A stretch of DNA of 64,000 nt from an uncultured Paracoccaceae bacterium. GTDB lineage: Bacteria; Pseudomonadota; Alphaproteobacteria; Rhodobacterales; Rhodobacteraceae. Location of the stretch: assembly GCA_947495295.1 (NCBI GenBank), contig CANLYJ010000006.1:1-64000 (forward strand), given 5' to 3'. Shown here one piece after another: positions 30,051-48,031 of the stretch. Numbering within the stretch: the first letter of the stretch is position 1; the number at the start of each line of letters is the position of its first letter. Position numbers and translations under genes: made by a program. The notes beneath the pieces were generated by a model. It ran no database searches. It worked only from the letters and a program-made list of their open reading frames with translations, and was not told the DNA's origin.

Positions 30051-30117
30051 TTACCTGCCTTATCGCTGAATTCGCTTTCGAGAAATGCTTGACCTGTCAT
30101 TACTCATAATAAAATAT

Positions 30118-31377
30118 ATGCCCATGATGCAAAAATATTCCGCTGCTGCCCTACTGCGTCATGGGCTGAACCGGCATACAACCTGGCCACGTGCATGGCG
30201 CTGCCCGCCGCTGAAAGATGCCTATGACGTTATCATCATTGGCGCAGGTGGTCACGGGCTGGCGACTGCCTATCATCTGGCCAAGGATCACGGGATCACC
30301 AATGTTGCCGTATTGGAGCGCGGGTGGCTGGGTGGCGGGAATATCGCCCGCAACACGGTCACGATCCGGTCCAACTACATGCGTGATGCGTCGATCCCGT
30401 TCTACGTCAAATCAGTCGCCCTTTATGAAGAGCTGACCAAGGCGCTGAACTTCAACATGATGCATTCCAAGCGCACGATGGTCGACGTCGTGCAAACCTA
30501 TCCCAAGATGCGCGAATTGCGGCGGCGGCAGCTGACCATGGATATCTATGGGTCAACCTATGAACAGATAACGGTCGACGCGTTGCGACGCCGCATTCCC
30601 GCCCTGACCGGTGGCGGCCCTGACGCGCGCCTGCCGATCATCGGGGGTATGGTGCATACAGATGCAGGCGTGAACCGACATGACGCGGTGGCGTGGGGCT
30701 ATGCCCGCGCGATTGATGCGATGGGGGTTGAGATCCATCAGCAAACGGCGGTTGAAAGCCTTGTGCGTGGGGCAGATGGGCGGATCGAAGGCGTGCAGAC
30801 CAATCGCGGTCTGGTGCGCGCGCCCAAAGTTGCCGTCGCCGTGTCCGGCCATACCACAACGCTGACCGAAACGGCGGGGCTGAAACTGCCGCTGCGTACC
30901 ATGAACCTGACCGCTTTTGTGTCCGAGCCGGTGAAACCACTTGTCGATGTGATCGTGAATTGTCCCGATGCGGGGTTCTATTTCAGCCAGTCTGACAAGG
31001 GCGAGATGGTGATCGGCGGTGCCCCCGATATGGGCCAGTCGTTCCGCCGCGACATCAAACAACATGTGTTTGAGGACACGGTCACGGCCATGCTGTCGCT
31101 GTTTCCGTCGTTCAAAAAGCTCAAGCTGTTGCGCCAATGGGGCGGGCATCTGGATATCGCGCATGATGCGTCGCCGATCATGGATCAGACCGATGTGCCG
31201 GGGCTTTTTATCACGGCTGGGTGGTGGGGCGGCTACAAGGCGATCCCGGCCGGTGGCCTGACTCTGGCCCATCTGGTGGCGACGGGTCGGCCCCATGATC
31301 TGATGTCGAAATTCACCCTGAAGCGGTTCCGTCACCTTGATTACGTGATGGAAAGCGGCACGACAACGGCCAGATAG
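30118..31377 (+). CDS. soxB: Sarcosine oxidase, beta subunit
   Basis: A ~420-residue flavoprotein of the DAO family. The dinucleotide motif YDVIIIGAGGHGLATAYHLA lies near residue 35, followed by LERGWLGGGNIARNTVTIRSNY, where the covalent FMN-type region of SoxB is expected. It ends GWWGGYKAIPAGGLTLAHLVATG. Heterotetrameric sarcosine oxidase demethylates sarcosine to glycine, passing the methyl group to tetrahydrofolate. Several starts are possible (30085, 30118, 30127); family alignment favours M-Q-K-Y-S at 30127 or the ATG at 30118. First gene of soxBDAG. The N-terminal third is more diverged than usual, so a related N-methyl amine is possible. Confidence 0.9.
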   Translation: MPMMQKYSAAALLRHGLNRHTTWPRAWRCPPLKDAYDVIIIGAGGHGLATAYHLAKDHGITNVAVLERGWLGGGNIARNTVTIRSNYMRDASIPFYVKSVALYEELTKALNFNMMHSKRTMVDVVQTYPKMRELRRRQLTMDIYGSTYEQITVDALRRRIPALTGGGPDARLPIIGGMVHTDAGVNRHDAVAWGYARAIDAMGVEIHQQTAVESLVRGADGRIEGVQTNRGLVRAPKVAVAVSGHTTTLTETAGLKLPLRTMNLTAFVSEPVKPLVDVIVNCPDAGFYFSQSDKGEMVIGGAPDMGQSFRRDIKQHVFEDTVTAMLSLFPSFKKLKLLRQWGGHLDIAHDASPIMDQTDVPGLFITAGWWGGYKAIPAGGLTLAHLVATGRPHDLMSKFTLKRFRHLDYVMESGTTTAR

Positions 31378-31389
31378 GAGGGCACTAAT

Positions 31390-31647
31390 ATGATGAACAT
31401 TCCCTGCCCATTCTGCGGCTCGCGCAATGAGGCTGAGTTCGCCTTTGGTGGCCCGGTTAAGCCTGACCGCTCTGATCCAAACACCGTTAGCGAAGAGGAA
31501 TGGGTCGCCTATCTGACGCAGGTGCCAAATCCACTGGGCCCGGTGCAGGAACGGTGGTGGCATGTCAAAGGTTGCGGGATGTGGCTGACTATCTGGCGCG
31601 ACACCCGCACGCATGACATCGTGGAAGGCCCCGCCGATGCCGAGTAA
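31390..31647 (+). CDS. soxD: Sarcosine oxidase, delta subunit
   Basis: An 85-residue zinc-binding subunit. CPFCG near the N-terminus and WWHVKGCGMW carry the zinc ligands; RDTRTHDI is the conserved tail. GGAGGGCACTAAT before the start provides a ribosome site. It lies between soxB and soxA, overlapping soxA by 11 bp. Part of the cytoplasmic alpha-beta-gamma-delta complex. Confidence 0.93.
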   Translation: MMNIPCPFCGSRNEAEFAFGGPVKPDRSDPNTVSEEEWVAYLTQVPNPLGPVQERWWHVKGCGMWLTIWRDTRTHDIVEGPADAE

Positions 31648-34549: not shown

Positions 34550-34550
34550 T

Positions 34551-35045
34551 ATGCCATATGACGTCCAGATAGACCGCCTGCCCTGCTTTGCGCTATTCGA
34601 TCTAAAAGGTCCGGCTACAGATCTGGCCGCTTGGGCCGACGTCCTGCCTGCCTTTCCCAAAGCGGCGAACACGCTGACCCGCCATAATGGTGTTGATCTG
34701 TGCTTTACCGGACGAAACCGCTGGATATTGCGCGCTGACATCGCACGCGAAGACGCCCTGATTGCTGCTTTGCGGCCAGAGAAAGCGCCGCCCGAAATCA
34801 GCATCACCCGCGTTTCTGACACGCTGACCTTCTTTCGCATCACCGGCCCTGACGCGGCGCAAGTGATGTTGATCGGTTGCCCGCTTGATCTGCACGATAG
34901 CGTCTTTGGACCAGATGCGGTCAGCTACTCAGAGTTTTTCGGACTCAAAGCGCTGGTCATGCGTTGTGAAGGCGGTTTTGACTGCGCGGTCGAACAGAGC
35001 TTTGGCGATATGGTCGCCGATTATCTGTCACGGGCGACAGCATGA
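34551..35045 (+). CDS. soxG: Sarcosine oxidase, gamma subunit
   Basis: A 164-residue subunit with low but recognisable SoxG/GcvT-like character: PCFALFDLKGPATDLAAWADVLPAFPKAANT, FTGRNRWILRAD, then ITRVSDTLTFFRITGPDAAQVMLIGCPLDLH, the best conserved part. It follows soxA by 1 bp. It completes the soxBDAG operon. Ends 3 bp before the convergent Rieske gene. Confidence 0.88.
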   Translation: MPYDVQIDRLPCFALFDLKGPATDLAAWADVLPAFPKAANTLTRHNGVDLCFTGRNRWILRADIAREDALIAALRPEKAPPEISITRVSDTLTFFRITGPDAAQVMLIGCPLDLHDSVFGPDAVSYSEFFGLKALVMRCEGGFDCAVEQSFGDMVADYLSRATA

Positions 35046-35048
35046 AAG

Positions 35049-35366
35049 CTACATCCTGACCTGCACCATACCTTTCGTGACCCGGGTCTCGAACACACGC
35101 ATCGGTTTGGTTGCGGGGGCACCAACCGGCATGCCATCCCGCACATCAAATGCACCCTGATGCAGCGGGCATTCGATGACATGGCCATCAAAATACCCAT
35201 CACATAAATCCGCCCCGCCGTGATTGCACAAAGCCAGTGACGCAAAAATACCGCTGGGCGTGTCATAGATCGCCAGCTTGCGTGGGCCGATGTCGACCCG
35301 CGTTACCCAGCCCTTTTCCAACGCCGACACCGCGATAATATCGCGCCATGGTTTTTCATTGGCCAT
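35049..35366 (-). CDS. Rieske 2Fe-2S ferredoxin
   Basis: A 105-residue soluble Rieske protein. The cluster ligands are CNH (in LALCNHGGADLCDG) and CPLH (in IECPLHQGAFDVRDG) with normal spacing. Such ferredoxins carry electrons to oxygenases. The gene directly follows a membrane desaturase/hydroxylase on the same strand (5-bp gap), so it probably delivers electrons to that enzyme. No dedicated reductase gene is adjacent. Confidence 0.92.
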   Translation of the reverse strand: MANEKPWRDIIAVSALEKGWVTRVDIGPRKLAIYDTPSGIFASLALCNHGGADLCDGYFDGHVIECPLHQGAFDVRDGMPVGAPATKPMRVFETRVTKGMVQVRM

Positions 35367-35371
35367 GGGTC

Positions 35372-36322
35372 TTAATCCTGCGCCGGTCCAGGGCCGCGCA
35401 GGATTTGGCGCAGGATATCACGATGTGCGGCCAGATAACCGCCCGGTTCGACATAGATATGGTCCTTCAGCTTGTCGTGGAGCCGCGGCAAGGCGTGAAA
35501 GGGGACAGAGGCAACATAATGATGTTCGGCGTGGTAATTCATGTTCCAGCACAAGAACCGCCAGGGGGCGGATACCAGATTGGTACGGGTGTTTTCGGAC
35601 ATTTGCGGTACGGTAGGCCGCCCCACATGTTCGGTCATACGGATGAAGCGCATCACGGGTTCCCCCAGAAATAGCGGGATGATCCAATACCAGATCAAAC
35701 CTGACCAGCCGGTGATCACGCTGCCCAGAAACAGCAGCCCGTAAATTGTCAGCATCATCCTTGCATCGCGATAAACGGCGGCATGTTCGACCTGCGGGAT
35801 AAAGCGCAATTCACCGGGGCTTAACCGGCCAAAGGCATGGCGGAACAGTTCGGTGAACTTGCTGCGCCAATAGGGTACCGCCGAAAGATACCAAAGATAC
35901 GCACCGATGGTCTGTGGCAATGGGATCATCTCGGGGTCGTCGCCCGTGGTCTGGGTGTAAGTGTGATGATCACAATGCTCATAACGGAAAAAGCGATGCG
36001 GCAGGATGATGATCAATCCGCAAATCTGCCCGGCCAGATCATTCAGCCAACGGGTACGAAAAACGGTGTAATGCACGCATTCATGCTGCAACGAAAAATG
36101 ATGGACCAGCACGATGCCATGCAGAAACATGGCAGGCCAGATCAGCCAACTGTCCCATGCCAATGTGATCAGGGTCGTTGTTGCCACCAAAACCAGCAGC
36201 CAAATTGCCAGTCTGCGAAATGCCGGTGCATCGGACCGGTGCATGAATGATTTCAGGTCTTCGCGTGTCAGTTTTCCCTCGGCCAGGGCCTGTGTCAGCG
36301 GTGTGACGATTGCGTCTGTCAT
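35372..36322 (-). CDS. Membrane fatty acid desaturase/hydroxylase-family protein
   Basis: A 316-residue inner-membrane diiron protein. The three histidine boxes are visible: HHFSLQHECVHYT, HCDHHTYTQ and HAEHHYVA. Hydrophobic helices flank them. Family members insert oxygen or desaturate acyl chains, carotenoids or alkyl groups. Its partner Rieske ferredoxin and the soxBDAG operon next door raise the possibility of acting on an amine- or amino-acid-linked substrate, but nothing in the sequence fixes the substrate. Confidence 0.88.
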   Translation of the reverse strand: MTDAIVTPLTQALAEGKLTREDLKSFMHRSDAPAFRRLAIWLLVLVATTTLITLAWDSWLIWPAMFLHGIVLVHHFSLQHECVHYTVFRTRWLNDLAGQICGLIIILPHRFFRYEHCDHHTYTQTTGDDPEMIPLPQTIGAYLWYLSAVPYWRSKFTELFRHAFGRLSPGELRFIPQVEHAAVYRDARMMLTIYGLLFLGSVITGWSGLIWYWIIPLFLGEPVMRFIRMTEHVGRPTVPQMSENTRTNLVSAPWRFLCWNMNYHAEHHYVASVPFHALPRLHDKLKDHIYVEPGGYLAAHRDILRQILRGPGPAQD

Positions 36323-36442
36323 GAAGATGTCCGTGTGTTTTGCCGGCTTGGGTCATCTTGATCCTGCAACGCCAGCGCCGGAGACGGGAGTGCTCCGCAC
36401 CATGGGGGTCGGCTCATCTCGCCCCCATTGGCGAAGAATAAA

Positions 36443-37546
36443 TCAAACGCTGACAGCTTTTTCAAGCATCTGGCGCATCCCGATATCTCTGTCGGGATGG
36501 TCAAATAGTGCTGCAGCACAGGGATATTCGCGCAGGATCGCAGGACCAGATGGCAGGCGCGCTGCATGAAAGACGCCATTATCCCAGTAGGTCACACCAT
36601 CCACGATGATCGTTGGATCAAATACATTCCAACTTATTTCGCCGGGCGCATAGGCACCGCAGGTGTGAAAATGCAGGACCCGTGGATTGCCAAATGCGGT
36701 CCCGCCCCAGCGTTCATAATTGTCACGCATATCCCATGGATAGCCACAGCCGGGGTGTATGCCCGCATGCCAAGAATGTACAAAATCACGCTCAATCCCG
36801 AAACGCGTTGCGATGCGATCATATTGCGCCTCTGCGCGGGCAACATCGGCTGGGGCACCTTCGAAACGCCGCAGGCGTCCGCTTTCCATCATTGCAAAGA
36901 CCGGGTGGTCAAATTCTATCGTATAATCGTCGTAGTATTTTGACCCTGTGCCAGTCAGGAATGTCAGCGCCACGCGGCCGGTAAAGCTATGCGCCGGAAC
37001 CGGGGTGAAAACGGACATCGGAAACCGCAAAACAGATGTGTCACCCGCTGGGGTCAGGTTCATCTGCGGGCGACCGCGCACATCCGTTCCCAAGGGACAC
37101 GTGATATGGACGTCACCGGCCGCCGCCAACAGGTTATTGACCCCCGTCTTGATACGCAGAAACGCATCGTGATGCCCATTGGCCAGCCCCGACCCGAATA
37201 GCTCGCGGTTCAGGGCAAAACTGACGATGATCTTCTTGTCCTGTGGCATCTGGGAAAACCGGAGCTGATCGCCCAGCCGGGCCAGAAACAGGATAATATC
37301 CGCAGCCTCGAACCGGGCAAGCAATGCAGGGGGCAGATGCGGATTGTCGGCGTTAAAGCCTACATTGACTGCATCGACCTGCAATCCCATCTCCAGCCCG
37401 GCCTTTGTCACCACGCTGACGGCAGTTTTGTCGTAATACCCGTATTCCGGCGGTTCAAATGCGATCAAAAGCCGGTCGCCGGGCTGCGCATTTGCACAGT
37501 TTTCCAGTAAATTACGCGCACCCCGCGCAGGCGTCATATCCGGCAT
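36443..37546 (-). CDS. M29-like aminopeptidase family protein
   Basis: A 367-residue cytosolic protein resembling the aminopeptidase T/M29-like group (COG2309-type). It begins RGARNLLENCANAQPGDRLLIAFEPPEYGYYD, contains the GTDVRGRP segment, and has a C-terminal part rich in potential metal ligands (WHAGIHPGCGYPWDMRDN; RVLHFHTCGAYAPGEISWNVFDPTI). If correct it is a metal-dependent peptidase, but some members of this group have amide or other small-molecule substrates. It is in the same orientation as the desaturase/Rieske pair, 120 bp upstream. Confidence 0.6.
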   Translation of the reverse strand: MPDMTPARGARNLLENCANAQPGDRLLIAFEPPEYGYYDKTAVSVVTKAGLEMGLQVDAVNVGFNADNPHLPPALLARFEAADIILFLARLGDQLRFSQMPQDKKIIVSFALNRELFGSGLANGHHDAFLRIKTGVNNLLAAAGDVHITCPLGTDVRGRPQMNLTPAGDTSVLRFPMSVFTPVPAHSFTGRVALTFLTGTGSKYYDDYTIEFDHPVFAMMESGRLRRFEGAPADVARAEAQYDRIATRFGIERDFVHSWHAGIHPGCGYPWDMRDNYERWGGTAFGNPRVLHFHTCGAYAPGEISWNVFDPTIIVDGVTYWDNGVFHAARLPSGPAILREYPCAAALFDHPDRDIGMRQMLEKAVSV

Positions 37547-37765
37547 CGTTGCCTCTGGCTGAACCCGTCAGGTGACGGTAGCGCGGGCAGGGTTCATCAC
37601 ATATCTGAAAGTGTTAATAACGCGCATTAGGTGTTCTAATGCCGCGACTGAACCGTGTTGCACAACACCGTCAGGTCCGTTGACGCTGCGGTCTGGTCGC
37701 CGTGGGCATTTTGCCGCATAGTGACCTTGCGCGTTCACGATCGGACGCCATGAACGGAGAGCCGC
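37547..37765. promoter_or_regulatory. Divergent promoter region with two dyads
   Basis: 219 bp between the peptidase gene (minus) and the aminotransferase gene (plus). It contains GCATTAG-5nt-CTAATGC at 37624-37642 and GTGTTG-CA-CAACAC at 37655-37668, both perfect dyads 12 bp apart. They look like operator sites for regulator(s) acting on one or both divergent genes. Confidence 0.55.
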
Positions 37766-39085
37766 ATGAGCCATGTATTCCCACGTCATTGCCGGTCCGA
37801 CTTGCCCGCGGCCAAGCGCGGCGAAGGATGCTACTTGATCGACCAGAATGGCAAACGGTATTTCGATGGCTCCGGTGGGGCGGCAGTGTCTTGCCTTGGC
37901 CATTCCAACGAACGGGTCAAACAGGCGATCAAGGATCAGGTTGACGAACTTGCCTTTGCCCATACCGGTTTTTTCACCTCCGACCCGGCCGAAGCATTGG
38001 CGGAGCTTCTGATCACGCATGCCCCCGGCGATCTGGATCGGGTCTATTTTGTCTCTGGTGGGTCAGAAGCCGTTGAGGCAGCGTTGAAACTGGCCCGGCA
38101 ATATCACGTTGAACGTGGTGAGCCGCAGCGCCGACATCTTATTGCGCGCCGCCAAAGCTATCACGGCAACACCCTTGGTGCCCTGGCCGCAGGCGGCAAC
38201 CAGTGGCGGCGGTCCCAGTTCGAACCGATCCTGATCGACGTCAGCCATATCGCGCCTTGTTACGAATATGCGGAACGGCCCGAGGGTGAGAGCGCCTACG
38301 ACTACGGTCAGCGCGTGGCGAACGAGTTGGAACAAGAGATTCTGCGTCTGGGTTCGGACAGCGTCATGGCCTTTATCGCCGAACCCGTCGTTGGCGCCAC
38401 GCTTGGTGCCGTCCCCCCGGTCGATGGCTACTTCAAACGGGTCCGCGAGATTTGTGACCAATATGGCGTCCTGCTGATCCTTGACGAGGTGATGTGTGGC
38501 ATGGGCCGAACCGGCCATCTTTTCGCTTGCGAGGCGGATGGCATTACCCCCGATATCGTGACCATCGCCAAGGGGCTTGGGGCCGGGTATCAGCCGATTG
38601 GCGCGATGCTCTGTACTGGTCAGATATACGATACGATCGCTGCCGGGTCGGGTTTGTTCCAGCACGGGCATACCTATATCGGCCACCCGACAGCCTGTGC
38701 TGCAGGACTGGCTGTGGTGAACACAATTCTGGATGACAACCTTGTCGGGCGTGTGCGTGACATGGGGGCAAAGCTGGAAATAGCGTTGCATGATGCATTG
38801 GGGCAGCATGCACATGTCGGTGATATCCGGGGCCGTGGGTTGTTCTGGGGCGTCGAATTTGTTGCAGATCGCGGGGCCAAGCAACCGTTTGACCCTGCCA
38901 AAGGCCTTGCTGGCAAGCTGAAGAAAGCAGCCTTTGCAGAAGGTCTGATCTGTTACCCCATGCCCGGCACCCGTGATGGCAAACAGGGCGACCACGTTCT
39001 GCTCGCCCCGCCCTTCATCATGGACGACGAACATGTGACGGAAATCACGGACAAGCTGACCCGGGCCATTGATCAGGTGCTGTAG
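37766..39085 (+). CDS. Class III pyridoxal-phosphate aminotransferase
   Basis: A 439-residue PLP enzyme. GSEAVEAALKLARQYH is the phosphate-binding region, HGNTLGA the next block, LILDEVMCGMGRTG holds the conserved Asp, and TIAKGLGAGYQPIGA gives the Schiff-base lysine near residue 269. The family includes beta-alanine/omega-amino acid, ornithine and taurine transaminases. No stringent specificity signature is visible. It is convergent with the enoyl-CoA hydratase gene, with stop codons touching. Confidence 0.92.
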   Translation: MSHVFPRHCRSDLPAAKRGEGCYLIDQNGKRYFDGSGGAAVSCLGHSNERVKQAIKDQVDELAFAHTGFFTSDPAEALAELLITHAPGDLDRVYFVSGGSEAVEAALKLARQYHVERGEPQRRHLIARRQSYHGNTLGALAAGGNQWRRSQFEPILIDVSHIAPCYEYAERPEGESAYDYGQRVANELEQEILRLGSDSVMAFIAEPVVGATLGAVPPVDGYFKRVREICDQYGVLLILDEVMCGMGRTGHLFACEADGITPDIVTIAKGLGAGYQPIGAMLCTGQIYDTIAAGSGLFQHGHTYIGHPTACAAGLAVVNTILDDNLVGRVRDMGAKLEIALHDALGQHAHVGDIRGRGLFWGVEFVADRGAKQPFDPAKGLAGKLKKAAFAEGLICYPMPGTRDGKQGDHVLLAPPFIMDDEHVTEITDKLTRAIDQVL

Positions 39086-39859
39086 CTACCCCGCATCATG
39101 AAATCGCGGTGGCCGCTTTTCGATAAACGCGGCCATGCCTTCTTTTTGGGCCTCTGATCCATAAAGCGCATGGTACATTTGACGTTCGAACTGGATGCCG
39201 CTGTCCAAGGTGCTTTGCGCGGCCATGTTCACACAAGCCCGCGCCATCATCGCGATGTCGCGGGGATATCCGGCAATATCCTGCGCCACCGCCATGGCGG
39301 TCTCGGCCAGATCGGCATCCGGGATCACCCGGCTGACCAGACCCATTTGCAACGCCTCATCCGCCGTGATCATCCGCCCTGTCAGGATCAGATCCATGGC
39401 GCGCGCGCGTCCGATCAGCCGGGTCAGGCGCTGGGTTCCGCCAATGCCGGGAATGCAACCGATCTTGATCTCGGGCTGGCCGAATTTCGCGGCCTCTCCG
39501 GCAAGGATGACGTCACACATCATCGCAACTTCACAGCCACCGCCCAGTGCAAACCCGTTTACAGCGGCCAGCTTGGGCAAGCGCAATGCGGCAAAGCGAT
39601 CCCACCCGGCAAAGTAATCCGCAGCATACATGCTGGCATAATCGTGCAGGGCCAGTTCCTTGATGTCCGCCCCGGCAGCAAAGGCGCGCCCGGTGCCAGT
39701 GAGGACCAAACAGCCGATATCGCTATCCGCGTCAAAGCCGGTCGCGGCATCCAGCACCTCTTGCATGACCTGACTGTTCAGCGCGTTCAGCTTGTCGGGC
39801 CGGTCAAAGCGGATCGTGGCAACACGGCCTGTGACCGCTGTTTCAATTGTCTGATACAT
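39086..39859 (-). CDS. Enoyl-CoA hydratase/isomerase family protein
   Basis: A 257-residue crotonase-fold protein, close to the FadB/PaaF-type norm. Conserved blocks are TGTGRAFAAGADIKEL (first oxyanion segment), GFALGGGCEVAMMCDVILA and the catalytic Glu region IKIGCIPGIGGTQRLTRLIG, so both catalytic glutamates appear present. Start at 39859 (MYQTIETAV) leaves one base to the preceding gene's stop. Last gene of the operon with the reductase, membrane protein and adenylating enzyme. Confidence 0.9.
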   Translation of the reverse strand: MYQTIETAVTGRVATIRFDRPDKLNALNSQVMQEVLDAATGFDADSDIGCLVLTGTGRAFAAGADIKELALHDYASMYAADYFAGWDRFAALRLPKLAAVNGFALGGGCEVAMMCDVILAGEAAKFGQPEIKIGCIPGIGGTQRLTRLIGRARAMDLILTGRMITADEALQMGLVSRVIPDADLAETAMAVAQDIAGYPRDIAMMARACVNMAAQSTLDSGIQFERQMYHALYGSEAQKEGMAAFIEKRPPRFHDAG

Positions 39860-39860
39860 C

Positions 39861-40478
39861 TCAACTATCCCAGATCGCGCCATAGGCGGGGATGCCAAGG
39901 CTTTCCATGTCATGCACCACACGGCGGGTCAGTTTCTGGTTTGCAATCACGATCACAGCTTCGGCCCCGGTTTCGCGGACGGCTTGCAGGGCAAGTGTCG
40001 TCAGATTGGGTTTGCCGTGTTCGTCGGTGTCCCAGATCACCGGGTTTTCGGTATGGGCCTCGATCTCGTCGACAATCGCATCGCCGTAGGTGGCGCGGGG
40101 GCTGCGGGTCGACCAGACAAGGTGGTTCGGTACTTTCCTTTTCAACAGATGCGGCAGGATCGGCCCGATCCCGGATCCGGTGCCGACATAGACAACTTTG
40201 GTAAACAGATCTTCGATCCGGGCGACGCCGGATGTCGTGATCCCTTTAACCCAAACATGGCTGGGCGGGTTTTCGATGAAATCACCGGTCCAGTCGCCCG
40301 CACGGCTGATGGCCAGCCGATAGCCCGGTTTGCCCGGTGTCGGGATATTGGCGAATGAATGGTATTGGCCAAAAGGGGTGTGGGACAGGGCGTTGGAACT
40401 ACCCGCAAACGGGGTGTCTCCATAATCAAACCCGGCAATGACGACGTGGTTCGACGGCTTGTCGATGGTCACCTTCAC
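39861..40478 (-). CDS. Flavin/NAD(P)-binding reductase-like protein of the fungal TmpA-type family
   Basis: A 205-residue protein with PFGQYHSFANIPTPGKPGYRL, RAGDWTGDFIENPPSHVWVKGI and VVYVGTGSGIGPILPHLL. The last is the NAD(P)-binding glycine motif of ferredoxin-reductase-like enzymes, and the first is the short flavin-side segment. I recall nearly the same succession in the C-terminal domain of fungal membrane oxidoreductases fused or linked to adenylating domains (TmpA/TmpB-type). It is shorter than a full FAD+NAD reductase, so the flavin domain is reduced. Encoded directly after the membrane protein (4-bp gap), which it probably docks to. Confidence 0.7.
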   Translation of the reverse strand: MKVTIDKPSNHVVIAGFDYGDTPFAGSSNALSHTPFGQYHSFANIPTPGKPGYRLAISRAGDWTGDFIENPPSHVWVKGITTSGVARIEDLFTKVVYVGTGSGIGPILPHLLKRKVPNHLVWSTRSPRATYGDAIVDEIEAHTENPVIWDTDEHGKPNLTTLALQAVRETGAEAVIVIANQKLTRRVVHDMESLGIPAYGAIWDS

Positions 40479-40481
40479 CCG

Positions 40482-41183
40482 TTACAGCGTTAACCAAGGG
40501 GACACAATCGACAGGGTGATCAGGCACAGCATCCAGAAGGCGGGTGCCTCGGTCAGGCTACCGCCCACATCGCGTGTCATCGACATGGTCTGCGCCCAGA
40601 ACAGGGCCAGCACGGTCCAGCCGACAAAGCGGTGGATGCGTTCGAACACGTCATGAAACCGGGCGCGGATCGGTCCCAGTGCCGAGACGATCATCAGGAC
40701 CATCAAGCCGACCATCACAGCACTAAGGCCCAGGGTCACGTCAGACGGAATAGCCGCGCCGCTGATCCGGTTGGCCGCCATAGCAAAAAGCAGGAAGCCA
40801 AACCAAACGGTCCCGACGACGGTGCCGCCCGAATGCAGCCCGCCGAAATGGAACACTTTGCCAGCGCCCCAGCGGATCCATAAGGGCCAACTGGTCGGTA
40901 TCCGGGTGGCAAGCCAGAACAGGATATTCACCACACGTTGCTGACGGATCAGGATGCCAAGCGACAGATTGATCAGCGCCATATCGGCAATCGGGGCAAG
41001 GGCAAACGCCCCATCCGATAACCAGCGTCCGTCGCGCAGACCAATGGCAAACACAAAAAGGTTCACGGCGACCACCAGGAAAACAAGCCGCCGGTATTCC
41101 ATCAATGACGGGTGGCGGGTGATGCGGCGGACCCGCTTGGCAAAGCCCGCGCGGGGATCAAGGTCAACGGTTTGGGTCGACAT
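40482..41183 (-). CDS. Polytopic membrane protein, ferric-reductase-like
   Basis: A 233-residue inner-membrane protein with about six or seven hydrophobic helices. Two histidine sites, FHFGGLHSGG and ERIHRFVGW, lie at helix ends and could ligate heme as in ferric-reductase-like transmembrane domains. The ATG overlaps the stop of the adenylating-enzyme gene by 1 bp and the reductase gene follows after 4 bp. The natural reading is a membrane electron-transfer module: reductase in the cytoplasm, heme in the membrane. Heme binding is inference. Confidence 0.72.
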   Translation of the reverse strand: MSTQTVDLDPRAGFAKRVRRITRHPSLMEYRRLVFLVVAVNLFVFAIGLRDGRWLSDGAFALAPIADMALINLSLGILIRQQRVVNILFWLATRIPTSWPLWIRWGAGKVFHFGGLHSGGTVVGTVWFGFLLFAMAANRISGAAIPSDVTLGLSAVMVGLMVLMIVSALGPIRARFHDVFERIHRFVGWTVLALFWAQTMSMTRDVGGSLTEAPAFWMLCLITLSIVSPWLTL

Positions 41184-42808
41184 CAGTTCAACTCCACTTT
41201 GCTGGTGGCAATTGCGTCGGCGGCCATTTGCAATAGCAACCGTTTGTCGATCTTGCCGCGCGCGGTGCGGGGTAGCTCATCCAGGGCCAGGACAAGGGTA
41301 GGTTTGTTGTAATAGGGCAGACGGTTCGTCACTGATTGCGTTGCCGTGACGGGGTCAGCGGTCGCGGGCGAGATGAAAGCGACCAGATTGCGGTTGTCAT
41401 ATTTCAGTGTCACGGCCTGTTCGCAGCCTTCTGACGCCTCCAGCGCTGCGGAAACCCCGTCCAGTTCAACGCGAAAGCCGCAGATTTTTACCAGATCATC
41501 GACCCCGCCGAAATGTTCCAGCGCGCCATCCTCGGTCCAGGCGCCCAGATCACGGGTGCGGAACATCTTGTGACCCGGACGGAACGGATCATCGCGATAT
41601 CGGTCCGCCGTCAGCGCGGGGTTGGCCAGATAGCCCATGGTCACACAATCACCGCCCGCCCACATCTCGCCCTTTTGACCGATGGGCAGGGGGGTCAGAT
41701 CGTCATCCAAAACATAGACCGTGTTGTTGGGGGTGGGTCGTCCAATGGACAGGACCGGTTTGTTGGGGAAATGCGGCTCTGCGGTGTTGATGATCGTCGT
41801 CTCGGTTGGGCCGCAGGAATTGTAGAATGCACAGAACGCGGACCATGTGTCCGCCAAGGGGCGCGGGCACGGTTCGCCCGCCACGGCGGCGACCTTGACC
41901 CCATGACAGCGGTCGGCATCCAGTGCATTCAGGATCGACGGAGTCGCGATAAGAATATCCACCTTCTCTGCCGTCTCGGCGATGGACTTGCCACGAATGA
42001 CCAATGTGGCCCCGTTTGATAATGCGCCCAGCGTTTCCCAAGCGGCCATATCAAATGCGATGGACAGGATCTGCCCGACCCGCAAACCTGGGCGCATACC
42101 CAGATCGCCGGGGGACGTTTGCAGGATGTTGCACAGGTTGCGGTGGGTCACCTGCACGCCGTTCGGCACGCCCGTGGTGCCAGAGGTAAACAAAACCATG
42201 GCGCGGTTATCCGGGCGCAGACGGTGTTGCGGCCCGTTCGGCGCGGTATCTGGCAGGCCGGTGTCCTGCATGGTCGTATCAATCGCAATCACGGTTTGAT
42301 CCGCAGTAACAGGAACCTGATCGACAAGATGGCTCAATGACAGGATCACGCGCGCGCCAGTGGCCTTCGCGATATGGCGCAGCGCTTCGGTCGGGGCGAC
42401 ACCGACATGCTGCGGCGCATAGGCGGCACCAACCTTCATGGCGGCCAGAAGGCCCACCAGCATCTCGATGGAACGATGCAGATATAGGCAGACGACATCG
42501 CCGCGCTTGACGCCTTTGGCGGCCAATTGCCCGGCAAGGCGATTTGCGGACGTGTTCAGATCAGCATAGGTAATCCTGTCATCACCACATTCAGCAGCAA
42601 TCGCGTCGGGTTGCCTATGCGCGAAATGCGCAAACCCCTTCAGTATCGTATCAAAGCGGGGGGTGACCTCTGGCCCAAAGCCAAAGGACACAAAGCGTTG
42701 GCGATCCTGCGGGGTCAGGCCTTGCAGCGCCTTTTCCAACGGCGGCGCCAAATAGGTCTGGACGGGAAATACCTGCTGGGACAGCGTGTTTCGGAGTGAG
42801 TGGGGCAT
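41183..42808 (-). CDS. Adenylate-forming enzyme (NRPS-type A domain, stand-alone)
   Basis: A 541-residue AMP-binding protein. An N-terminal leader (RQRFVSFGFGPEVTPRFDTI, residues 37-56) precedes the adenylation core: TSGTTGVPNGV at 208-218, YNSCGPTETTI, a TRD motif, FRVELDGV and the C-terminal TARGKIDKRLL with the catalytic lysine. The phosphate loop has Asn where Lys is usual (PNG instead of PKG). No carrier-protein domain and no phosphopantetheine Ser follows, so the acyl-adenylate must go to a free acceptor or another protein. The 'FGxGP' leader is one I recall from fungal adenylating proteins with membrane reductase partners. First gene of the operon; a strong palindrome sits just upstream. 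Confidence 0.85.
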   Translation of the reverse strand: MPHSLRNTLSQQVFPVQTYLAPPLEKALQGLTPQDRQRFVSFGFGPEVTPRFDTILKGFAHFAHRQPDAIAAECGDDRITYADLNTSANRLAGQLAAKGVKRGDVVCLYLHRSIEMLVGLLAAMKVGAAYAPQHVGVAPTEALRHIAKATGARVILSLSHLVDQVPVTADQTVIAIDTTMQDTGLPDTAPNGPQHRLRPDNRAMVLFTSGTTGVPNGVQVTHRNLCNILQTSPGDLGMRPGLRVGQILSIAFDMAAWETLGALSNGATLVIRGKSIAETAEKVDILIATPSILNALDADRCHGVKVAAVAGEPCPRPLADTWSAFCAFYNSCGPTETTIINTAEPHFPNKPVLSIGRPTPNNTVYVLDDDLTPLPIGQKGEMWAGGDCVTMGYLANPALTADRYRDDPFRPGHKMFRTRDLGAWTEDGALEHFGGVDDLVKICGFRVELDGVSAALEASEGCEQAVTLKYDNRNLVAFISPATADPVTATQSVTNRLPYYNKPTLVLALDELPRTARGKIDKRLLLQMAADAIATSKVELN

Positions 42809-42839
42809 GTATTTTCTCCTGATGGAAATATGCCCTAGA

Positions 42840-42864
42840 AATAATGGGAAAAAATCCCATTATT
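42840..42864. promoter_or_regulatory. Perfect 10-5-10 palindrome before the adenylating-enzyme operon
   Basis: AATAATGGGA (42840-42849) and TCCCATTATT (42855-42864) are perfect inverted repeats with a five-A spacer, 32 bp upstream of the minus-strand operon's first ATG. In this position an operator or 5'-leader hairpin is more likely than a terminator. No dedicated regulator gene is adjacent. Confidence 0.65.
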
Positions 42865-42961
42865 ACATCACAAGATTTAACGTAGCGTCACGACAACGTG
42901 TATATGTGACAGAAATTGGCAAACGCACTACATAATACATTTAAAAATATGGATATTATTG

Positions 42962-43780
42962 ATGAGCGATAAGTCGCCCGATCCGTTTTCCACTGCGCTG
43001 GGTGATTTGCTTGCCCCGCTCGCCCGGGCCATCGTCGCGCAGGGTTTGACACTTGGGTCGCTGACGGAATCAATGAAACAGGCCTTGCTGAATGCTGCGA
43101 TCGAGACCGAAGGCGCAGACGTATCCGACAGCAGGATCAGTGTGATCACCGGGTTGCACCGCAAGGATGTGCGCAGGTTGCGTGCCGATACAGACGTATC
43201 CTCCGGTCGGAAATCGGCAAATCGCATGGCTTTGCTGATCGGCCATTGGACAGGGGCACCCGGTTTCCAAGATCAGAATGGTGCGCCGCGCGCACTTAGC
43301 CGGGACAATGACAAAGACGGTCCGGGCTTCAATGAACTGGTGCGCCGCGTGCGGCTGGATGCGGCACCGGGCACGATCCTGCAAACACTTATTGATCAGG
43401 GCGCGGTGCAACAAACCCCAGATGACAGATTCGCATTGGTAGCCAACGCCTTGCTCCCGGCGGCAGGGTCCGAGGAGTTGATCGCCGCTTACCACGCCAC
43501 GCTGTCAGCCCATCTGACGGCCGCCACACATAACCTTTTGGCGGGGTCGGGCGAGGCACGGCACTTTGATCGCATCCTGCGGTATTCACATCTAAGCGAT
43601 GTTGCGATTGCGGAACTAGAGGCATTGGCCAAGACAGAAGCCCAGAAGATGCTACAGACATTGAACACCCGCGCGCGCGCATTGCAGGAACGCGATGCGG
43701 ATCATAAGGCCAAAGGAACGTTTGCAGCAGGGGCCTATATCCTGCCGACCCCTGCCGCAGATGAAGGGGATGCAGAATGA
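42962..43780 (+). CDS. DUF6502 family protein
   Basis: A 272-residue protein. The N-terminal ~90 residues (LGDLLAPLARAIVAQGLTLGSLTESMKQALLNAAI..., ISVITGLHRKDVRRLR) look like a DNA-binding-type helical domain, as known for DUF6502. The rest is mainly helical and contains a basic/acidic C-terminus. ATG at 42962; a TTG one codon earlier is possible. It overlaps the next gene by 4 bp. DUF6502 and DUF5666 genes are often neighbours in proteobacteria (from memory). Function unknown. Confidence 0.8.
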   Translation: MSDKSPDPFSTALGDLLAPLARAIVAQGLTLGSLTESMKQALLNAAIETEGADVSDSRISVITGLHRKDVRRLRADTDVSSGRKSANRMALLIGHWTGAPGFQDQNGAPRALSRDNDKDGPGFNELVRRVRLDAAPGTILQTLIDQGAVQQTPDDRFALVANALLPAAGSEELIAAYHATLSAHLTAATHNLLAGSGEARHFDRILRYSHLSDVAIAELEALAKTEAQKMLQTLNTRARALQERDADHKAKGTFAAGAYILPTPAADEGDAE

Positions 43781-44661
43781 GGCGACTGGGCATTCTGGCG
43801 GCAGCCATCCTTGGCCTCTGCCTGACATCTGCGGCATGGGCAGAAGCAGAGGATACCGAACGCGAAGGCGGCATCCTGGGCACCGGCATTGTCGGAACCA
43901 TCACAGCCTTGGGCAGTATCTATGTCAACGGCCAGCACATTCTGTTTGATGATGGCATGGCGGTCGAAAACCTGTTGCCCGGTCATACCGTGGCCGTGCT
44001 GGCACATCTGGAAGGGTCGGAATGGCGGGCAAGGGATATCCGGCAAATCCTACCGCTTGTTGGGCCTGCACAGGTATCGCCGGATGGTCAACTGACCATC
44101 ATGGGCACGCGCGTTTTGACAGCTGATGGCATGGCTTCGGATATCGCTACCGGTGATTGGGTCGCCATCAGCGGGCTGTGGCAAGCAGGGCAGGTGATCG
44201 CAACGCGGGTGGACCGGGTCAGTGATCCCGTCAACGCCCGTATCGAAGGGACGGTCTTTAATACCCAGTCGGATCGACCCCTCAGGCTGGGCGGCACGGA
44301 AATCAGGGGCTTGCGGCCACAGCACCTTCAGGACGGGGATGTCATTCGGGCAACAGGCGAGCCGGCAGAGGACAGTTTGCAGGTAAGCCAGCTGGAAACG
44401 GGTGTCTTCGCCAGCGCGCCGGGCATGGTGCTGATCGAAGGATACTTCTCAGCGCCACAACCATCGGGGCTTTATACCGTGTTGGGGTCAAACATCGTAT
44501 CATATACCGACAGCCCGGAAATGATTGATCCTTTGGCCAAACAACTGATCTGCAGTAGCGCAGGGATAATGGTTACGGTTGATATCACGTCCATGGACCC
44601 TGGGAATCTCGTGGAAATCCCGGCAGAGTGCGTCGATGGGACGATGGCACCACTGGACTAA
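43777..44661 (+). CDS. DUF5666 domain protein, exported
   Basis: A 294-residue protein with a signal peptide (MRRLGILAAAILGLCLTSAAWA, cleaved about residue 22). The mature part contains repeated small beta units of about 60-70 residues (GIVGTITALGSIYVNGQHILFDD; GPAQVSPDGQLTIMGTRVLT; ARIEGTVFNTQSDRPLRLGG), the DUF5666 pattern, probably OB-like barrels in the periplasm. It overlaps the DUF6502 gene (ATGA), so the two are translated together although one is predicted cytoplasmic and the other exported. Confidence 0.82.
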   Translation: MRRLGILAAAILGLCLTSAAWAEAEDTEREGGILGTGIVGTITALGSIYVNGQHILFDDGMAVENLLPGHTVAVLAHLEGSEWRARDIRQILPLVGPAQVSPDGQLTIMGTRVLTADGMASDIATGDWVAISGLWQAGQVIATRVDRVSDPVNARIEGTVFNTQSDRPLRLGGTEIRGLRPQHLQDGDVIRATGEPAEDSLQVSQLETGVFASAPGMVLIEGYFSAPQPSGLYTVLGSNIVSYTDSPEMIDPLAKQLICSSAGIMVTVDITSMDPGNLVEIPAECVDGTMAPLD

Positions 44662-45044
44662 TGCAGACACCCCAACAACGAATCCAAGTTTGCAGAATAT
44701 CATATATATCAACGTGATAAATGATATTCTTGAAAAAAGAGAAGTCCGAAACGGCCCGCCGATTTTATGGCTATGCAAGGATAGGCCAGCCCGCGCTTGC
44801 GACATCCGACCCGGCGGATCGCGCGCCCTTTGCGCTAAACCAAACCGGGACATAGCCCTTTCACAAGACGCCTGAAACTGCGCCAAAAGCGCAATGTGTA
44901 GGCAACTGGTCTAAATCAAATCCAAAACTGGCCCTAATGAACTGAGGGTCATCGCGCGTAGCTTAAATTACTTGACTGGGGCGGCTAAGACTGTGCTCTT
45001 CAAGTAATGCGATGAAATTCGCAAGTATCAACGAGGAGGATTCT
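44662..45044. promoter_or_regulatory. 383-bp intergenic region before the TRAP operon
   Basis: No gene seen. GAATATCAT (44695-44703) and ATGATATTC (44721-44729) are perfect 9-bp inverted repeats enclosing a smaller dyad TATCA-ACG-TGATA (44706-44718). This nested palindrome lies in an AT-rich patch, followed by about 250 bp of ordinary sequence. It may serve the TRAP operon promoter or terminate the DUF6502/DUF5666 unit, although no T-run follows. Confidence 0.5.
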
Positions 45045-46061
45045 ATGACATTTATGACGAAAATTACGTCTACGGTCGCCGTTGCGGCAGCGGCAACGCT
45101 GCTGAGCTTTGGCGCGGCCGAGGCGAAAAACTTCAAAATCGCCGTCGGCGACAGCGGCGGCAGCAGCCAGGAAGCAACCGGCCTGGCCTTTATCGAAGCG
45201 TTGGAAGAGCTTTCGGGCGGCGAGCACACAGCAACACTGTTCCTGAACGGTCAGCTGGGGTCAGAGCAGGACACCGTGAACGAAGCCGCAATCGGCACGC
45301 TGGATATGTCGCTGCTGGCAATCAACAACGTAACACCGTTTTCACCAACAGTTGGCGTGTTCTCACTGCCATATGTGATCCTGAGCCTGGAAGACGCTGA
45401 AAAGCTGACCCAAGGGCCAATCGGTCAGGAACTGACAGAAAACACAATCAACGACGCCGGCGTGCGGATCATCGCATGGACCTACACAGGGTTCCGCCGT
45501 CTGACCAACTCCAAAAAGCCAGTGACATCTGTCGCTGACCTGCAAGGGCTGGTGATCCGCGTTCCCAAGAACGAGATCATGATCGACACATATAAGGCAT
45601 GGGGCATCAGCCCAACGCCGATGGCGTGGTCCGAAACATTTGCTGGTTTGCAGACTCAGGTTGTTGACGGTCAGGACAACCCATACACCACCATCAACGC
45701 GATGAAGTTCTACGAAGTACAAAAATACGTCACGAACATCCGTTACATCTTCTCTATCGAACCTCTGATCATCTCCGAGCAGGTTTTCCAGGAACTGTCC
45801 GAAGAAGACCAGAACATCGTTCTGGAAGCAGGCAAGGCGGCAACAGCTGCATCTGCCCAGTTCCTCCGCGACAAAGAAGCCGAGATTAAGCAGATCCTGC
45901 TTGATGAAGGCATGGAGATCATGGACCCGGAGAACAACGAAGAAGAGTTCATCACGCTGGCAACCGAAGCCGTATGGCCAAAGTTCTATGACAGCATCGG
46001 CGGCATCGACAAGTTGAACGCTGTACTTGCTGAAATCGGTCGCGATCCCGTCTCCGAATAA
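45045..46061 (+). CDS. TRAP transporter substrate-binding protein (DctP family)
   Basis: A 338-residue periplasmic binding protein. The start at 45045 follows a strong GAGGAGG; the signal peptide is MTFMTKITSTVAVAAAATLL..., cleaved after about AEA. The mature region begins NFKIAVGD and has the conserved VIRVPKNEIMIDTYKAWGISPTPMAWSETFAGLQTQVVDGQDNP with the carboxylate-binding Arg. It captures an organic acid for the DctQ/DctM permease. The exact ligand is not readable. Confidence 0.93.
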   Translation: MTFMTKITSTVAVAAAATLLSFGAAEAKNFKIAVGDSGGSSQEATGLAFIEALEELSGGEHTATLFLNGQLGSEQDTVNEAAIGTLDMSLLAINNVTPFSPTVGVFSLPYVILSLEDAEKLTQGPIGQELTENTINDAGVRIIAWTYTGFRRLTNSKKPVTSVADLQGLVIRVPKNEIMIDTYKAWGISPTPMAWSETFAGLQTQVVDGQDNPYTTINAMKFYEVQKYVTNIRYIFSIEPLIISEQVFQELSEEDQNIVLEAGKAATAASAQFLRDKEAEIKQILLDEGMEIMDPENNEEEFITLATEAVWPKFYDSIGGIDKLNAVLAEIGRDPVSE

Positions 46062-46081
46062 TTCGCAATACAAGAAATGGG

Positions 46082-46101
46082 CAAGCGCCTTCCGGCGCTT
46101 G
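46082..46101 (+). promoter_or_regulatory. Hairpin between TRAP binding-protein and permease genes
   Basis: CAAGCGCC (46082-46089) pairs perfectly with GGCGCTTG (46094-46101) around TTCC, 20 bases after the binding-protein stop. There is no T-run, so read-through is expected. It probably stabilises the binding-protein message or partly attenuates permease expression. Confidence 0.6.
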
Positions 46102-46124
46102 TCTGAACGAAGTGGGAGGGGCAA

Positions 46125-46691
46125 ATGACAAAATTTTGGTATGTCGTCGATAATATAGAAAGCTACATCTGCCGCACGTTACTTGCGATATTTGTATGCT
46201 TGCTGTTTTTGCAGGTCGTCGTAAGAACACTGTTCGACTTTTCGTTTTCATGGGTCGAAGAACTGTCGATCTACATGTTCGTCTGGTTTGTGTTCTTTGG
46301 TGCAAGCTATGCCGCCAAGATGGGGGCGCATAACCGCGTGACCTTTCAATTCAAGTTCCTGCCACCACGGGCCATCAAATATATCGAAGCTTTTGCTGAC
46401 CTGTTCTGGATCTTCTTCAATGTCTACTTCGTCTATCTGGCGATTGATTTCATCTTCAACAAGATGAACAGGTTCCAGTCCTCTCAGACCATGGGGTTCC
46501 ACCTCAGCTGGGTCTATATCGTGCTGCCGATTGCATTCACGCTGATGACCATCCGGGTCATTCAGGTGAACTATCGCAAGATCATCCTGGACGAAGACAT
46601 GCGTGACCCTGACTCGATCGACCTTGAAGAAGTCAGGGCCGATATTGGCGAAGCGCCAGCAACATCTGGCAGCGAAGAGGAAACCAAGTAA
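46125..46691 (+). CDS. TRAP transporter small permease (DctQ family)
   Basis: A 188-residue inner-membrane protein with four helices. The N-terminal helix contains LLAIFVCLLFLQVVVRTLF, followed by the conserved SWVEELSIYMFVWFVFFGASYAAKMGAHNRV. The C-terminal ~40 residues are acidic and cytoplasmic. It overlaps the large permease gene by 1 bp. A GGGAGGGGC ribosome site precedes it. Confidence 0.92.
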   Translation: MTKFWYVVDNIESYICRTLLAIFVCLLFLQVVVRTLFDFSFSWVEELSIYMFVWFVFFGASYAAKMGAHNRVTFQFKFLPPRAIKYIEAFADLFWIFFNVYFVYLAIDFIFNKMNRFQSSQTMGFHLSWVYIVLPIAFTLMTIRVIQVNYRKIILDEDMRDPDSIDLEEVRADIGEAPATSGSEEETK

Positions 46692-48031
46692 TGGAAAGCC
46701 AAATCATCCTGATCCTCTTCGGAGGCTTCCTTCTTCTGTTGTTTATCGGCGCCCCGATCACCGTTGCGCTGGGCGTTTCGACGCTGATTTCATTCCTTTA
46801 TCTGGACGAAAACCCAATCAAATTCGTGCAGATCGCCTATACGTCGGTGGGGTCATTCCCGCTGATGGCGTTGCCCGCTTTCATTCTGGCCGGGGCGCTG
46901 ATGGAAGCCTCGGGGCTATCGCGACGGCTGATCAATGTCGCCGAAAGTTTCGCGGGTCCCTTTACCGGCGGCATGTCGGCGGCAACCGTCTTTGCCTGCC
47001 TGTTCTTTGGCGCGATTTCCGGCTCTGGCCCCGCAACGACAGCGGCTGTTGGCATGCTGATGATCCCTGCCATGATCGAACGCGGCTATGGCCGCAGCTT
47101 TTCATCGGCGATCACGGCATCGTCTGGTGGCCTGGGGATCGTGATCCCGCCATCAATCCCACTGATCATCTTTGGGATTGCCGCGCTGGGCATGCCGGCC
47201 CCACCCGAAGCGGTGGAAGAGTTCGGGCAGTTCCAGACCGTGTCGATCCCGAAACTGTTCATTGCGGGTTTCATGCCGGCCTTCCTGATCGCGGGAAGCT
47301 TGCTGATCATGAACTACATCCTGGCGAAAAAGCACGGCTATAAGGGTTCTGCCGAAGGCTGGTCCGCACGCGAAATCTGGTGCGAGATGTATCGCGGTTT
47401 CTGGGCGCTGATGGCCCCGGTTGTGATCCTTGGCGGTATCTATTCGGGCTTCTTCACACCAACCGAAGCTGCGATTGTGGCCATTTTCTACACCTTGGTT
47501 GTGGGGGCATTCATCTACCGCGAACTCAGCTGGCAGAAGCTGTTCACTGCGCTTGAAACAACAACATGGCTGACCGGGCGCGTCCTGTTGATCATGTTTA
47601 CGGCTACCGTGTTCGGCCGCCTACTGGTGGAAAACCAGATCCCTGCGGTCATCGCGAACGGTATGCTGTCAGTGACAGACAACATCTACATCATCTGGAC
47701 GCTGGTGATCTTCTTCCTGCTGTTTGTGGGGATGTTCATGGAAACACTGGCAACCATTCTGATCCTGGTGCCGGTCATGCTGCCTGTGGCCTACAGCGTG
47801 GGGATCGACCCGATCCACTTTGGGGTGGTGATGGTATGCTGCCTTGGTATCGGCTTTCAGACGCCACCGCTGGGCGAAAACCTTTTCATTGCCTCGGGTA
47901 TCTCGAACATCTCGATTGAAAAGATTTCGGTCGCGGCACTGCCTTTCGCTTTCATCAACACTATCGCGATATTTATAATCGCCTTTGTGCCTGAAATCTC
48001 CCTGTGGCTCCCCCGGTTCTTTGGCTATTGA
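46691..48031 (+). CDS. TRAP transporter large permease (DctM family)
   Basis: A 446-residue membrane protein of the usual DctM length with about 12 helices. Signatures: ALPAFILAGALMEASGLSRRLINVAESFAG, FFGAISGSGPATTAAVGMLMIPAMIERGY, SSGGLGIVIPPSIPLIIFG and the C-terminal GIDPIHFGVVMVCCLGIGFQTPPLGENLF. This is a complete counterpart to the broken fragment at 5032. It forms the Na+-driven channel with DctQ. Confidence 0.94.
   Translation: MESQIILILFGGFLLLLFIGAPITVALGVSTLISFLYLDENPIKFVQIAYTSVGSFPLMALPAFILAGALMEASGLSRRLINVAESFAGPFTGGMSAATVFACLFFGAISGSGPATTAAVGMLMIPAMIERGYGRSFSSAITASSGGLGIVIPPSIPLIIFGIAALGMPAPPEAVEEFGQFQTVSIPKLFIAGFMPAFLIAGSLLIMNYILAKKHGYKGSAEGWSAREIWCEMYRGFWALMAPVVILGGIYSGFFTPTEAAIVAIFYTLVVGAFIYRELSWQKLFTALETTTWLTGRVLLIMFTATVFGRLLVENQIPAVIANGMLSVTDNIYIIWTLVIFFLLFVGMFMETLATILILVPVMLPVAYSVGIDPIHFGVVMVCCLGIGFQTPPLGENLFIASGISNISIEKISVAALPFAFINTIAIFIIAFVPEISLWLPRFFGY

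Follow-up and report, generated by a model that had tools for sequence, protein, structure and literature searches.

Fungal proteins of the TmpB, TmpL and NPS12 type are described as single polypeptides in which an adenylation (A) domain is followed by a ferric-reductase-like membrane region and a domain that binds flavin adenine dinucleotide (FAD) and NAD(P), the order given for TmpB, TmpL and ChNPS12 (PMC4804170, PMC2766074, PMC2823734). TmpB of Aspergillus nidulans (AN9129) has 989 amino acids (aa) (PMC4804170), TmpL of Alternaria brassicicola and of Aspergillus fumigatus 1025 and 994 aa (PMC2766074), and an NPS12 homologue 1006 aa (PMC4890743); the FAD/NAD(P) domain of TmpL carries the motif GSGIGP (PMC2766074). 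These proteins are reported to control conidiation, redox balance and virulence-related traits (PMC4804170, PMC2766074), and the TmpB product has been proposed as a signal (PMC4804170). In 2009, TmpL orthologs were called exclusive to filamentous fungi (PMC2766074). Bacterial stand-alone A domains are nested in the NPS12 clade of a published tree (PMC2823734), and the monomodular bacterial proteins of that clade are possibly the A genes of operons such as the one described here. This operon comes from an uncultured Paracoccaceae bacterium, in a stretch of 64,000 nucleotides (nt) of contig CANLYJ010000006.1 (the window), where its genes occupy 42808 to 39086, all on the minus strand. It encodes a stand-alone adenylation enzyme (A), a transmembrane oxidoreductase (T) and an enoyl-coenzyme A (CoA) hydratase of the crotonase type (E). 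We consider it probable that this conserved A-T-E operon is a bacterial counterpart of fungal TmpB/TmpL/NPS12, with T interrupted in this genome by one in-frame stop. In the open-access literature, we found nothing on a bacterial version of the system beyond the fungal papers. The parts of the operon are:

41183..42808, minus strand: A, stand-alone adenylation enzyme of the nonribosomal peptide synthetase (NRPS) type, 541 aa (PF00501, E 5.3e-71, 239.9 bits)
40482..41183, minus strand: membrane half of T, a transmembrane domain resembling NADPH oxidases (NOX) and ferric reductases, 233 aa (PF01794, E 2e-4)
40482..40484, minus strand: in-frame TAA between the halves of T, seen in this genome only among 13 carriers of the order sample
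39861..40478, minus strand: cytosolic half of T, an FAD/NAD(P)-binding reductase domain, 205 aa, with the blocks HSFANI, AGDWTG and GTGSGIGP
39086..39859, minus strand: E, operon-type enoyl-CoA hydratase (crotonase), 257 aa from the ATG at 39859 (PF00378, E 9.4e-71)

The stop of A and the following ATG overlap by one base, and all operon genes overlap or nearly touch. A scan of 84,980 prokaryote species with patterns from the T alignment returned 476 stretches, 333 of them encoding relatives of T; the best 80 were studied as loci. They belong to five phyla and comprise 56 Alphaproteobacteria, six Gammaproteobacteria, two Betaproteobacteria, nine Actinomycetes, three Bacteroidota, three Chloroflexota and one cyanobacterium. 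A gene for A lies upstream of T on the same strand, at a distance of at most 240 nt, in all 80 loci, and in 36 out of 38 junctions measured the two genes share 1 or 4 nt. A crotonase gene follows T within 430 nt in 69 loci; of the 11 misses, three leave no room on the contig and eight do. Pairwise distances between the proteins agree across 59 loci (r 0.94 for T-A, 0.86 for T-E and 0.88 for A-E), and the agreement is weaker in the 20 most distant ones (0.76, 0.37 and 0.54, respectively). By sequence comparison, A-T-E is a conserved three-gene operon in unrelated bacteria. The initial annotation of the window had named scattered gene order in relatives as a sign against its proposal, a split bacterial form of TmpA/TmpB-like systems; the order found is conserved.

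The closest approach to the fungal architecture is seen in three of the 80 loci, in which A and T form a single polypeptide of about 1000 aa: Aquimarina muelleri (1005 aa), an uncultured Aquimarina (1019 aa) and a metagenome-assembled genome of the Saprospiraceae (1018 aa). A further genome of the Bacteroidota sample (L134, G495:C2:322556-323842) has A, T and crotonase as separate genes, hence the A-T fusion is not universal in this phylum. The window does not have the fused form. Because its A gene is separate and its T gene interrupted, the operon would work like a TmpB/TmpL protein but should not be filed as one. The likeness to TmpA/TmpB claimed at the outset is thus borne out by the order of segments and by three bacteroidotal fusions of the same order and size, but not by the split between membrane protein and reductase, which is specific to this strain.

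That split deserves a closer description. The polytopic and the reductase open reading frame (ORF) share one reading frame, are parted only by the TAA at 40482-40484, and a GTG, a possible start codon, follows shortly afterwards in the same frame. Relatives encode T as a single ORF of about 440 aa. Among 398 sampled genomes of the phylum (the source genome counted), three others have the reductase, each in an open frame of 446-489 aa. In a sample of 390 genomes of the order, 13 carry T, and the stop occurs in the source genome alone while the 12 others are unbroken; none of the 80 loci of the genome-wide scan has an internal stop in the T match. The shared frame and the single ORF of the relatives imply three genes, not four. 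All four reading frames of the initial annotation (adenylation, polytopic, reductase and hydratase) were recovered at their minus-strand positions, but the membrane and reductase frames are one gene, and what had been taken for a natural division is an in-frame stop, found in this genome only among those examined. T is carried by three out of 22 same-genus genomes listed in the order sample, and the system is therefore patchy.

For this strain alone, and in harmony with a fungal-type role of the family, T may be a recently broken pseudogene in an operon that no longer works, a possibility to which we give about even weight. It is favoured by the uniqueness of the stop among the carriers and loci surveyed and by decay of A or E at other loci. 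It is also favoured by the comparison of the membrane half with genome G099, which yields only six changes, four of them amino-acid changes (synonymous divergence, dS, 0.011; ratio of nonsynonymous to synonymous divergence, dN/dS, 0.70). On the other side, in a structural model of the intact relative L010 the last membrane helix ends at 231 and the FAD domain begins with a strand at 234, and the stop would fall in between. With the same-frame GTG soon after, two separate polypeptides would be possible. Moreover, A, the reductase half and E have dN/dS values against G099 of 0.097, 0.016 and 0.091, respectively, which mostly reflect the time before the stop, and an assembly error may be an alternative source of the stop. 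As an observation on the same comparison, divergence between window positions 35000-48000 and G099 (L007) switches between near-identical stretches and stretches about 10% different, and the membrane half of T falls within one of the near-identical stretches. This patchiness suggests patchwork recombination, and the few changes in the membrane half fit such a patchwork of low- and high-divergence stretches.

The best NCBIfam model for the adenylation enzyme is TIGR01733 (amino-acid adenylation), with 309.6 bits slightly below the cut-off of 317.4, which the fused protein of A. muelleri exceeds (325.3). Pfam matches are AMP-binding and AMP-binding_C only, and neither a carrier nor a condensation domain was found with Pfam or NCBIfam, so that the module organization of NRPS (A, carrier, condensation) does not apply to it. 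The missing carrier domain had been pointed out before. The 'FGxGP' leader described with it is merely an N-terminal stretch of A, whose G45 and P46 do not vary among four aligned sequences. The pocket code in the window is DMWIAASIIK, including D253 and K519; the identical code occurs in 50 of the 73 rows read, and 67 fit DMWIAA[S/A]I[I/V]K. The amino-binding Asp is present in 72 of these rows, and position 322 is Ser, Ala or, in two rows, Gly. This near-invariant pocket points to one hydrophobic alpha-amino acid as the substrate of A. The pocket residues D, W, G, I and K published for TmpB are all found in bacterial A, and the spacing between positions 330 and 517 is 180 in TmpB, 179-181 in the bacterial proteins (measurable in 74 of the 80 loci) and 187 in PheA. 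PheA itself shares D235, W239, A301, I330 and K517 of its code with bacterial A.

Enoyl-CoA hydratases use two catalytic glutamates, as in the rat enzyme. Both (E110 and E130) are kept in 64 out of 64 full-length operon copies of E, from 69 copies altogether, and the best solved relative is echA8. When ten carrier genomes were queried with the window crotonase, the top hit was the operon copy every time (54-65% identity, against up to 55% for the runner-up). A crotonase tree of 60 rows, 26 of them paralogs, unites 33 of the 34 operon copies, drawn from five phyla, in a single clade (support 100/99). By this placement the crotonase is a member of the operon unit, apart from its paralogs.

With these residues at hand, a second explanation can be weighed, which concerns the whole family: a catabolic cassette similar to beta-oxidation, in which A is an acyl- or aryl-CoA ligase, T the electron-transfer partner of an acyl-CoA dehydrogenation and E a hydratase, so that a compound is degraded and no signal made. 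A ligase, a redox enzyme and a hydratase in a row do follow the logic of beta-oxidation, and E has both catalytic glutamates and echA8 as its best solved relative. We nevertheless regard this explanation as unlikely, because A possesses the alpha-amino-binding Asp in nearly all rows and scores best on an amino-acid adenylation model. In addition, with A, T and E set aside, none of the top 30 clusters of flanking genes reaches more than seven of 26 distant loci. The flank clustering relied on crude ORF picking that is lossy in high-GC genomes and recovered E in only 58 loci; weak gene links may therefore be missed.

For T, an AlphaFold model was made of the intact relative L010 (predicted local distance difference test, pLDDT, 88.7; predicted template-modelling score, pTM, 0.85), and it contains six long helices of membrane length. 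Its best Foldseek match is SpNOX (E 6.1e-13, TM-score 0.58/0.63), followed by DUOX1, NOX5 and NOX2, and the reductase half matches the dehydrogenase domain of SpNOX by fold. Conserved blocks in this half are HSFA, GDWT and GTGSGIGP, and the GSGIGP columns (336-341) are conserved in at least 97.5% of rows. H112, H117, H177 and H184 of the membrane region are present in all 80 loci. Two-haem NOX enzymes and ferric reductases have two pairs of histidines, spaced about 13 residues apart on transmembrane helices (TM) 3 and 5. We take H117 and H184 of T to correspond, by register, to the first, inner-haem histidines of NOX enzymes; the HMMER alignment of T with NOX2 that favours the H184 register is not significant. 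At the outer-haem positions, none of the 80 loci has a histidine at 126-135 (TM3), and only eight have one at 198 (TM5). As the outer-haem histidines are lacking, T is expected to bind no more than one haem and to have no electron path leading out of the cell. An identity of T as a two-haem NADPH oxidase or ferric reductase was accordingly rejected. The 'heme-type' membrane protein of the initial annotation is plausible, though with one haem only, since the likely inner-haem histidines are kept and the outer pair is absent. That T makes reactive oxygen species (ROS) or reduces iron across the membrane, with A and E as bystanders, is very improbable: the NOX fold, SpNOX as best match, the Ferric_reduct similarity and the altered ROS homeostasis of fungal TmpL mutants (PMC2766074) speak in its favour, but the outer-haem pair is not there, and A adjoins T in every locus and is fused to it in three.

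T-like proteins were also noticed on plasmids of Pantoea piersonii (45.6% identity) and Calothrix (27%), where they are annotated as hypothetical. On these two, out of five matching plasmid records, neither A nor a crotonase lies within 4 kb of T. Such stand-alone forms are possibly bacterial equivalents of fungal TmpA alone.

Starting from the gene order, residues and fold observed, we infer for the A-T-E operon a substrate, an acyl acceptor, a redox direction and a product. A would adenylate one particular alpha-amino acid, hydrophobic and perhaps aromatic, and, because no carrier protein is present, would hand it on as a CoA thioester or directly. Judging from fold and motifs, T would pass electrons from NAD(P)H via FAD to a single haem b in the inner leaflet. 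With at most one haem and no outward wire, these electrons are proposed to go to a substrate within or next to the inner leaflet. At the membrane, T would most likely oxidize or desaturate an activated lipophilic substrate. E would then hydrate or otherwise process the resulting alpha,beta-unsaturated CoA thioester, and the product would probably be a secondary metabolite or a small signal molecule, in line with the proposal for fungal TmpB.

Several observations weigh against the operon being a counterpart of the fungal proteins. The likeness to the latter is one to published descriptions, the genome, plasmid, phage and PDB collections searched having yielded no fungal TmpA, TmpB or TmpL sequence, and the spacing between positions 235 and 322 of A is 78 in bacteria, compared with 69 in TmpB and 87 in PheA. 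For T, a hydropathy scan gives five peaks, so that the count of six helices depends on the model. The membrane half in the window reaches 21.8 bits with PF01794 (Ferric_reduct) at a cut-off of 28, and L010 likewise remains below it. Two separate T proteins were compared with NCBIfam and matched no model, and sequence searches of the PDB bring T to NOX chains only at E 0.06-0.25. The T protein of the window itself may be inactive. As to the other two genes, A of L086 has no amino-binding Asp, and L024, L039, L044 and L053 have an A gene that is fragmented or interrupted. The crotonase is missing in eight loci despite room, and also in genome G122; E has stops in L014, L016, L042, L053 and L056; and the neighbouring crotonase of the Saprospiraceae locus (36% identical) falls into another clade. 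The stops and broken frames of A or E in several loci indicate that single strains decay, and the operon seems, from these frames, to decay often.

On the other side of A, two genes are arranged head to head with it in 47 of the 80 loci, all 47 alphaproteobacterial:

42959..43780, plus strand: DUF6502 protein, divergent from A, possible regulator (PF20112, E 1.5e-24)
43777..44661, plus strand: DUF5666 protein behind DUF6502 (PF18914, E 1.4e-10)

The pair possibly has a regulatory role. DUF6502 is a single-copy gene in this genome; its structural model (pLDDT 79.6) has no match in the PDB at E 0.001, the best being HetR with E 0.03, and our literature search found no paper on it. Beside the operon, window positions 35049-39085 encode a Rieske ferredoxin, a protein similar to fatty-acid desaturases, an unclassified protein of 367 aa and a class III aminotransferase. 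The aminotransferase, a DUF-like peptidase-type gene, the desaturase and the Rieske ferredoxin were considered as parts of the system and left out, because they recur together only in the window, in G099 (same record as L010) and in L011. Positions 30085-35045 hold a sarcosine-oxidase-like gene set (a DAO protein, an SO_alpha_A3/GCV_T protein and a small ORF). A role in anti-phage defence was discarded, with no PADLOC match for the five proteins tested.

What has been known is the fungal architecture; what is new is a widespread bacterial operon of the same anatomy with an operon-specific crotonase. It is compact, its A and T genes are separate, its pocket hardly varies and its crotonase is inherited along with them, which makes the question of substrate, redox step and product testable in culturable, harmless marine bacteria. 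It also adds with T a widely spread family of bacterial membrane enzymes that the Pfam and NCBIfam libraries barely recognize: PF01794 matches just 26 out of 60 T members at E<=1. This family points to a use of the NOX fold, with one haem, in small-molecule chemistry. A bolder proposal, which we hold to be rather doubtful, is that the fungal TmpB/TmpL pathway has its bacterial original in this operon. A conserved cross-kingdom small molecule would then be made from one hydrophobic amino acid without a carrier, through adenylation, desaturation at the inner leaflet by T as a one-haem membrane enzyme of NOX fold, and hydration by the dedicated crotonase. If this were true, T would be the founding member of a class of NOX-fold enzymes in which an activated substrate is modified and neither oxygen nor iron is reduced outside the cell.

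Compared with the NADPH oxidases SpNOX, NOX2, NOX5 and DUOX1 and with ferric reductases, T has the same helix bundle and FAD/NADPH dehydrogenase fold and a GDWT block as in NOX2. It differs in having HSFA where NOX2 has HPFT, in its GSGIGP, in keeping only the likely inner-haem pair of histidines and, for the window half and L010, in scores under the Pfam Ferric_reduct cut-off. TmpA and AfeA of fungi provide a second parallel, in that a stand-alone TmpA-type oxidoreductase acts in one pathway with an adjacent, separate adenylate-forming enzyme (PMC4804170); AfeA, however, is similar to 4-coumarate-CoA ligases, whereas the bacterial partner is of the NRPS type. The closest agreement is with TmpB, TmpL and ChNPS12, which share with the bacterial proteins the order of parts, the absence of carrier and condensation domains, the GSGIGP motif, the D, W, G, I and K residues and, in the fused bacteroidotal forms, the length of about 1000 aa. 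A crotonase gene lies near tmpB, as in the bacterial operon. They differ in that A and T are not one ORF in 77 of the 80 bacterial loci, in the spacing from 235 to 322 (78 in bacteria, 69 in TmpB), in that position 322 of A is Cys in TmpB but Ser, Ala or Gly in bacteria, and in the bacterial crotonase, which is tightly linked and clade-specific.

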